A stretch of DNA of 64,000 nucleotides, taken from Modicisalibacter tunisiensis. Lineage in GTDB: Bacteria; Pseudomonadota; Gammaproteobacteria; Pseudomonadales; Halomonadaceae. The stretch lies in contig NZ_JAGXFD010000001.1 in NCBI RefSeq assembly GCF_020148005.1, positions 671,552 through 735,551 of the forward strand, read 5' to 3'. Below the pieces are notes generated by a model that ran no database searches, was not told the DNA's origin, and saw nothing but the letters and a program-made list of their open reading frames with translations. This document shows, one piece after another, positions 318 to 1,577 of the stretch. Within the stretch, counting starts at the first letter, position 1. The number at the start of each line of letters is the position of its first letter. Both the position numbers and the translations under genes were made by a program.

Positions 318-1577
318 ATGAACATCCTTGTCACCGGCGGTGCCGGTTTCATCGGCTCCGCCGTGGTGCGCGAGCTGATCCACCATACGTCGCATCACGT
401 CACCAACGTCGACAAGCTCACCTACGCCGGCAACCTGGAATCGCTGGCCGCGATCGAGGACAGCCCGCGCTATCGTTTCGTGCAGGCGGATATCGTCGAT
501 GCCGAGGCCATGCACCGCGTGTTTCGGGAATGCCAGCCGGACGTGGTGATGCACCTGGCCGCGGAAAGCCATGTGGACCGCTCCATCGATGGCCCGGCCA
601 CCTTCATCCAGACCAATGTGGTGGGCACCTCGGTATTGCTGGAAACCGCCCGGGCGTACTGGCAGGCGCTCAAGCAGGATGACCCGACGAAGGCGGCCGG
701 CTTCCGCTTCCATCATGTGTCCACCGACGAGGTGTATGGGGACCTGGGGGAGAGTGAGGCGTCAGGCGTGAGGGGTGAGGGGAGAAGCGGTGAGGCGTTA
801 GGCGTGAGGGGTGGGGGGAGAAACGGTGAGGCGTTAGGCGTGAGGGGTGAGGAGCCTCCCCTCACCAGCGAAGCGCTCACTCCTCACCCCTCACCGGCGA
901 AGCCGCTTTTCACTGAAACCACCCCCTATTCGCCCAGTTCGCCGTATTCCGCCAGCAAGGCGGGCTCGGACCACCTGGTCCGCGCCTGGCAGCGCACCTT
1001 CGGCCTGCCGACGCTGGTCACCAACTGCTCCAACAACTACGGGCCGTATCACTTTCCCGAGAAGCTGATCCCGCTGATGATCCTCAACGCCCTGGCCGGC
1101 AAGCCGCTGCCGGTGTATGGCGATGGCGGCCAGATCCGCGACTGGCTCTATGTGGAAGATCACGCCCGCGCGCTGGTCCAGGTCGCGACCCGGGGCACGA
1201 TCGGCGAGACCTACAACATCGGCGGCCACAACGAGAAGACCAACCTGGAAGTGGTCGAGGCGATCTGCGAGATCCTGGACGAGCTGGTCCCGGCTGAGGA
1301 GAGAGGGGTGAGGGGTGAGGCACATATCCCCTCACAAGCGAAGCGCTCCCCCCTCACCCCTCACAAGGAACTCATCACCTTTGTCACCGATCGCCCCGGC
1401 CACGACCGGCGCTACGCCATCGACGCCTCGAAGATCAAGCGCGAGCTGGGCTGGCACCCGCAGGAAACCTTCGAGACCGGCCTGCGCAAGACGGTGGCGT
1501 GGTACCTGGAAAACCGGGAATGGTGGCAGCGGGTGCAGGACGGCAGCTACCAGGGGGAACGGCTGGGTGTGGTGTGA
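318..1577 (+). CDS. rfbB: dTDP-glucose 4,6-dehydratase with two in-frame repeat insertions
   Basis: Second step of dTDP-L-rhamnose synthesis (dTDP-glucose to dTDP-4-keto-6-deoxyglucose). The N-terminal Rossmann motif TGGAGFIG binds NAD, the catalytic STDEVYG motif has Thr136-Asp137-Glu138, and YSASK supplies Tyr and Lys. A GGGAGG ribosome site precedes ATG 318. At 419 residues it is about 60 longer than E. coli RmlB. The excess is two low-complexity inserts encoded by GTGAGGG/CCCTCAC repeats: residues about 147-195, directly after the TDE motif in a loop that is normally about 13 residues, and about 327-351, between ILDELVP and ITFVTDRPG. No stop or frameshift results. All catalytic motifs are intact, so activity is plausible but not proven. 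Confidence 0.95.
754..904 (+). repeat. GTGAGG-type palindromic insertion A, inside rfbB
   Basis: Three tandem units start at 754, 790 and 826 with a period of exactly 36 bases (12 codons), each beginning GTGAGGCGT and containing GGCGTGAGGGGT. The opposite-polarity half follows: AGCGAAGCGCTCAC at 867 and GGCGAAGCC at 896, 29 bases apart. GTGAGGGGTGAGGAG at 840-854 is perfectly complementary to 880-894 (15 bp stem, 25-base loop). The whole block is translated within rfbB. Confidence 0.9.
1303..1366 (+). repeat. GTGAGG-type palindromic insertion B, inside rfbB
   Basis: GTGAGGGGTGAGG at 1308-1320 is the perfect reverse complement of CCTCACCCCTCAC at 1352-1364. The 31-base loop contains the same AGCGAAGCGCTC core (1337) seen in insertion A. 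It is translated in frame between two conserved blocks of RfbB. Confidence 0.88.

Follow-up and report, generated by a model that had tools for sequence, protein, structure and literature searches.

The stretch of DNA that was analysed (64,000 nucleotides of Modicisalibacter tunisiensis, referred to below as the window) carries, on the forward strand, an rfbB gene and an rfbD gene separated by a small third gene. The rfbB gene (positions 318-1577; TIGR01181, E 7.1e-151) codes for a dTDP-glucose 4,6-dehydratase of 419 amino acids, and an alignment of 30 loci from the family, including that of the window, revealed two inserts in it. Insert 1 (747-905), located between YGDL and LFTE of RfbB, is 159 nt long versus 15 nt in 24 of the 30 loci, and consists of forward heptamers, including a 36-bp array of 2.8 copies (754-852), followed by an inverted array with a AGCGAAGCGCT motif. 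Insert 2 (1287-1373; 87 nt versus 30-45 nt in 23 of the 30 loci) is made of forward GTGAGGG heptamers, the AGCGAAGCGCT motif, and inverted CCCTCAC heptamers. Directly 3' of the rfbB stop codon, Tandem Repeats Finder (TRF) detected an array of (GAGGAGT) x 5.9 (1579-1619). It is followed by a gene for a four-helix-bundle protein (1628-1981), identified by profile search (PF05635, E 2.1e-37; TIGR02436), whose product has 2gsc (XCC0516) as a relative in the PDB (E 8.6e-34). PF05635 is the "23S rRNA-intervening sequence protein" family, abbreviated here as IVP. The stop codon of the IVP gene overlaps the start codon of rfbD (ATGA), and the array to its right (1985-2055), composed of reverse-orientation heptamers broken by AGCGAAGCR motifs, is read through by the RfbD frame, to which it contributes approximately 24 residues at the N-terminus. 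The rfbD gene itself (1978-2979; profile search) codes for a dTDP-4-dehydrorhamnose reductase of 333 amino acids and harbors a further insert (2633-2701; TRF) with reverse-oriented heptamers only and no inverted partner. Heptamer blocks between positions 747 and 2701 thus number five: two in rfbB, one in rfbD, and one on either side of the IVP gene. This 2 kb contains 11 of the 18 TGAGGNGTGAGG sites of the genome (overlapping matches counted).

Elsewhere in the same genome, another copy of rfbB (C1:660765-661811) lacks both inserts, and a second IVP gene, whose product is 36% identical to the first, lies between cysD and cysN, behind an array of (GGCTGCG) x 9.4. At a separate location far from both IVP genes (locus L015, positions 1200-1560; C1:1158533), TGAGGCG heptamers directly follow a tandem repeat of approximately 119 bp.

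The first-pass annotation had described the repeat of insert 1 as 36-base units starting at 754, 790, and 826 and encoding 12-residue repeats. TRF and translation confirmed the array, which lies in frame within an intact rfbB, and the 12-residue translations given were correct. TRF reports period 36 over 754-852 (2.8 copies, 93% matches). The units at 754-789 and 790-825 are identical at 33 of 36 positions, while the third (826-861) agrees with each of them at 28 of 36, because at this point the sequence turns into the inverted arm. It had been overlooked that TRF gives a second description of 754-852, with period 7 (13.9 copies, 71%), and that the block extends as inverted heptamers up to approximately position 902; the four other heptamer blocks within 2 kb and the IVP gene among them had also escaped notice. 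The elementary period is not 36 but 7: the 36-bp units are made of GTGAGGG/GTGAGGC heptamers, in the order GTGAGGC GTTAGGC GTGAGGG GTGAGGG and then an 8-mer. Uninterrupted (GTGAGGG)n brings in a TGA within 21 nt in all frames (its reverse complement is stop-free in all frames), and the 8-mer moves the phase at the point where the next heptamer would put TGA in frame. A unit of four heptamers and an 8-mer thus escapes the in-frame stop, and the proposal that the unit length was selected to keep the frame open is well founded in this part, though with 36 bp as what an open reading frame permits and not as the basic period. The unit was presumably tripled later. As regards a phase-variable simple-repeat (contingency) locus, in which copy changes would switch the frame, internal stops were present in none of the 30 rfbB loci compared, which are the best-scoring ones; their inserts were excised in whole codons, which makes lengths in "multiples of three" a matter of construction.

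Insert 1 begins approximately 8 residues past Thr136-Asp-Glu and ends approximately 14 residues ahead of YSASK (210), and so lies near the active site, as first noted. The accompanying view, that the array belongs to the loop covering the active site, stands as far as the adjacency to Thr-Asp-Glu goes. However, similar blocks occur at the second RfbB site, within RfbD and at its start, and next to the IVP gene, and in relatives the RfbB sites hold different repeats. We therefore conclude that the array has no particular tie to the active site. In an AlphaFold2 model, the RfbB core was of high confidence, residues 146-193 of insert 1 (pLDDT below 50) formed a disordered excursion, and the second insert had a pLDDT of approximately 52. 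Both inserts are accordingly predicted to be flexible, and the results lend no support to an effect of insert 1 on catalysis. RNA folding of insert 1 yielded a z-score of -2.28, with 4 of 200 shuffled sequences equally good, and that of insert 2 a z-score of -2.99 (1 of 200). Compared with shuffled sequences, the fold of the whole cassette was not exceptional (z -1.37), and the rfbD insert, in which the inverted arm is absent, gave a z-score of 0.45; the unexceptional cassette fold and the missing arm count against the reading of these blocks as parts of an element.

Of the 30 rfbB loci, 6 have more than 15 nt at site 1 and 7 have more than 45 nt at site 2. GTGAGGR blocks are found at these sites in the window, in L081 (GTGAGGA at site 1, GTGAATA at site 2), and in L082. 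L085 has AGCTTCC at both sites, a unit that also flanks cysD-cysN cassettes, and L080 (the rfbB of genome G065) has a GTCATTGCGAG...GCAATC repeat in frame at both sites and once more downstream of the stop codon. An IVP gene adjoins rfbB in three loci; all three have an insert at site 2, and two have one at site 1. Among the 27 loci with no adjoining IVP gene, four have an insert at site 1 and four at site 2. This distribution indicates that the two sites are tolerant and recurrently occupied, and that inserts are possible without a neighboring IVP gene.

To characterize IVP loci generally, three sets of best-scoring, hence not random, matches were used: a named set (the best 80 of 585 IVP loci, drawn from genomes with a name and spread over many phyla, forming 77 groups at more than 50% shared 4-mers), a family set of 29 related loci from the family of the window, and a phylum set of 28 loci. 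Outside the named set, each search contributed at most 30 loci. Loci of ParE (PF05016) served as a negative control. Flanks that contained N or were too short were left out, hence the differing n. Because the rule for assigning start codons was simple, it is possible that some flanks start inside genes. In the named set, autocorrelation of the flanks was raised at lags 7, 14, 21, and 28. At lag 7 it was 0.38 upstream (n = 77) and 0.35 downstream (n = 79), versus a flat 0.26-0.27 at 2.5 and 4 kb, and the codon signal at multiples of three was small and equal near and far. The corresponding upstream and downstream values were 0.39 and 0.38 in the family set (where lag 28 was not raised), 0.36 and 0.41 in the phylum set, and 0.26 and 0.27 at ParE. 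Lag-7 arrays were present in 144 of 269 IVP flanks (named 72/157, family 39/57, phylum 33/55) versus none of 59 ParE flanks, and at least one such array was found at 49 of 80 named, 27 of 29 family, and 22 of 28 phylum loci. Their absence from 31 of the 80 named loci counts against the element reading. Period-8 arrays occurred in 19/157 named, 1/57 family, and 4/55 phylum flanks; the IVP loci L139, L146, L149, L154, L155, and L166 have exact flanking arrays of period 8 instead of 7.

The lag-7 arrays have a median length of 32 nt, and 89 of the 144 contain four or five copies. The preference holds for units lacking GGG (72 of 120 arrays) as well as for those containing it (17 of 24), and G-quadruplexes are therefore not needed to explain it. 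When the strand that leads into the gene is considered, the arrays contain much G and little C (0.36 versus 0.14-0.15). The two flanks are inverted copies of each other in 79 of 127 testable loci (137 were taken; named 39/74, family 19/26, phylum 21/27), at a threshold of 13.5, the 99th percentile of mismatched pairs in the named set. Among the controls, no ParE locus (of 29) and a single displaced position (of 370) passed; in direct orientation, 10 of 74 named loci did. The 35 of 74 named loci that miss the threshold also count against the element reading. Where arrays are present on both sides, the upstream unit is the reverse complement of the downstream unit at six or more of seven bases in 36 of 46 loci (6% for swapped pairs), and a direct match across the gene was seen in 5 of the 46. 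Array units, then, vary between loci but match within a locus. Exact arrays numbered 45 in the 23.8 kb within 150 bp of an IVP gene (nine of them from a single locus, L163) versus 34 in 444.8 kb; at 1.5-5 kb from IVP genes period 7 still leads, with 34 of 69 exact arrays of periods 5-24. Neighbors on both sides, called mechanically, are co-directional with the IVP gene at 52/80 named, 19/29 family, and 19/28 phylum loci versus 6/30 for ParE, which is a poor control for this count, its partner gene possibly falling under the 100-amino-acid limit. Among six plasmid-borne IVP genes inspected by eye (of 20 matches), two (L341 and L344) have direct arrays, a further observation against the element reading.

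The insertion sites of the cassettes were examined in the family set, where cysN is the next gene after IVP in 24 of 29 loci (14 by script, 10 by eye) and rfbD in three, leaving L026 and L027 unassigned. In a comparison of empty and filled sites across species, 16 of 21 cysD-cysN junctions devoid of IVP had a 2-nt gap, i.e., a stop/start overlap; other gaps were 5, 15, 170, and 197 nt, and one junction (L236) was not parsed. Eleven intact cassettes measure 471-695 nt and lie exactly between the stop and start codons. In shortened cassettes of 376, 299, and 293 nt, part of the gene is gone and both arrays are kept, and one of 197 nt (L231) appears by eye to consist of arrays only. Two IVP subfamilies, distinguished by alignment and associated with different arrays, occupy this one site. 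Inspection by eye of L044, L245, L249, and other cysD-cysN cassettes showed a left end formed by a GC-rich hairpin that takes in the cysD stop codon, so that the end of the element mirrors its target; cassettes of the other subfamily (L241, L243, L247) have no such left hairpin. Neighbors recognized by eye place IVP genes between accB and accC in Xanthomonadaceae, after an S-adenosylhomocysteinase gene, between GDP-mannose dehydratase and epimerase genes (L125 and L137, from two phyla), and in defence operons, between pglZ and brxL (BREX; L176) and between cas6 and cas4 (L341). In one case, the IVP gene lies in antisense orientation among ribonucleotide reductase genes. In X. vasicola and at related loci, the IVP gene has GGGAATC-type arrays at its flanks.

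Over 151 genomes, an IVP gene was present in 43 (42 over the cut-off). Reverse transcriptase (PF00078) was found in 20 of these 43 and in 55 of the 108 others, and the Y1 transposase PF01797 in 17/43 and 39/108; neither co-occurs with IVP, and links to retroelements and to REP/RAYT systems were rejected in this set. No helper enzyme for movement was found among these two, which counts against the element reading. The only PF00078 match in the M. tunisiensis genome is at C1:1623890, approximately 950 kb away, and its only PF01797 match is at C1:80171. Triple TGAGGNG arrays do not track IVP either: they were present in 10/43 genomes with IVP and 14/108 without (p 0.14), and 14 of the 24 array-bearing genomes have no IVP, an observation against the element reading. 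Arrays can thus persist in a genome that has no IVP of its own. A search for known RNA families returned three microRNA matches only, all far under gathering scores. The family PF13366 (GxxExxY) was met by chance at two rfbB-rfbD junctions and was rejected as a period-7 class, with no period 7 in 30 loci. Inverted flanks were nevertheless seen in 13 of these 30 loci; they are not unique to IVP, which counts against the element reading. PF13366 loci (L259-L288) carry inverted repeats such as CCACGAAG...CTTCGTGG, with period 9-10 in a few and 7 never; by eye, L287 follows an apparent rfbB end, and L082 and L095 have a similar open reading frame between rfbB and rfbD. These loci may represent a sister class of element.

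The nearest known system to the heptamer-flanked IVP element is the rRNA intervening sequence (IVS). According to the accessible text of PMC4990558, the Coxiella 23S rRNA IVS has tandem heptamers before an S23p gene, terminal inverted repeats, and RNase III cuts. The cassette of the window likewise contains a PF05635 open reading frame between inverted terminal repeats, its left and right heptamer arrays. Unlike an S23p-type IVS, it lies between rfbB and rfbD and not in a 23S rRNA gene. More generally, IVP elements sit in protein operons and, as putative gene-less copies, inside reading frames; their heptamer arrays are themselves the inverted arms, and they occur in many phyla. IVSs with no open reading frame exist as well, for example in Salmonella. 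MITEs, REPs, and Rickettsia palindromic elements are known as in-frame inserts, and IVP elements are similarly small, inverted, and partly in frame, but differ in having tandem heptamers that change from locus to locus and are linked to IVP genes. PF05635 resembles Avd of diversity-generating retroelements (PMC10053308, in the part available), from which IVP loci differ in that reverse transcriptase is not linked to IVP. In the available text of PMC4692102, Xanthomonas and Nostoc GGGAATC / GGGGA(C/T)T repeats have period 7, prefer four units, and lie between aligned ORFs. The Xanthomonas repeats are in the same place in two species in 90% of cases and are generally not found with mobile elements, a positional stability that counts against a mobile-element reading. 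G-quadruplexes are proposed there for these heptamers, whereas in our loci units without GGG also prefer 4-5 copies. That text, as accessible, does not contain "four helix", "IVP", or "XCC0516". Heptamers in one rRNA IVS (PMC4990558) and repeats studied without the gene (PMC4692102) are thus already known, as far as the accessible portions of both papers go; a literature search that largely did not cover subscription journals and preprints returned no paper tying heptamer arrays to the PF05635 family in general.

We consider that the rfbB array is probably an array-only, in-frame relative of the heptamer-flanked IVP element. A full element would comprise forward tandem heptamers (mostly 4-5 copies), a PF05635 gene, and the same heptamers reversed, and would be inserted between neighboring operon genes, here rfbB and rfbD. 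Were the gene lost, the two arrays would remain face to face as a hairpin, and such an array-only remnant could persist inside a gene if the loop were tolerant and the frame stayed open. Inserts 1 and 2 would then derive from the cassette of the window or from a relative of it. Since presence is patchy (43/151 genomes) and two subfamilies occupy one site, the IVP element may be mobile. The arrays may pair in the transcript.

A plain slippage minisatellite is a rather unlikely alternative. Here, the heptamer would be a favored length of polymerase slippage, persisting in tolerant loops and operon gaps, with IVP as a bystander. Earlier work quoted in the accessible text of PMC4679880 found heptamers to be the most abundant 5-11-nt class in most genomes and proposed slippage, and both the TGAGGNG arrays of IVP-less genomes and the lead of period 7 far from IVP agree with this. 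Slippage does not, however, predict inverted arms with matched units around one gene family (36/46), the step in array density within 150 bp of IVP, or the complete lack of arrays at ParE (0/59). A device acting at the RNA level, and not mobile, deserves somewhat more weight, though we still regard it as doubtful: the facing arrays would form a stem that sets the IVP open reading frame apart within the operon transcript and controls downstream translation or processing by RNase III, with IVP binding the stem to regulate it. Inverted arms with mostly co-directional neighbors fit such a device, as do the RNase III cleavage of the rRNA IVS (PMC4990558, accessible text) and the fold of insert 2, beaten or equalled by only 1 of 200 shuffles. 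Yet the fold of the cassette is unexceptional, presence is patchy, and array-only copies within reading frames would get translated. Finally, selection of the insert for tuning of RfbB activity would account for its position in the loop adjoining Thr-Asp-Glu and for the kept frame, but is very improbable given the predicted disorder of the insert, the unrelated repeats at the same site in L080 and L085, and like blocks in rfbD and outside genes.

The preferred reading, an array-only relative of the IVP element, leads to a possible reason for the period. In 2gsc (XCC0516), five four-helix bundles form a ring (cited in the accessible parts of PMC4990558 and PMC10053308). The ring-shaped IVP pentamer may recognize tandem heptamers as RNA or DNA; a ring binding tandem units would fix their spacing and not their sequence, in agreement with variable units at a constant period. 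TRAP, for comparison, reads spaced triplets. As a tentative conjecture, which we think more likely wrong than right, many bacterial heptamer arrays (the Xanthomonas GGGAATC repeats, the cyanobacterial ones, and those described here) would be the ends and leftovers of a single ancient class of mobile elements whose sole gene is IVP. The pentamer ring would read one 7-nt unit per subunit, fixing the period and the 4-5 copies and leaving the unit sequence free, and array-only copies would seed new disordered loops in host proteins.

We know of no settled account of the origin of bacterial heptamers beyond proposed slippage. If the link to IVP is true, it would provide a testable source for them in a single small family of proteins whose structure has been solved (2gsc), and would give a function to seek in a family named after the place of its first sighting. 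It would also show a route from repeat debris to new protein segments.
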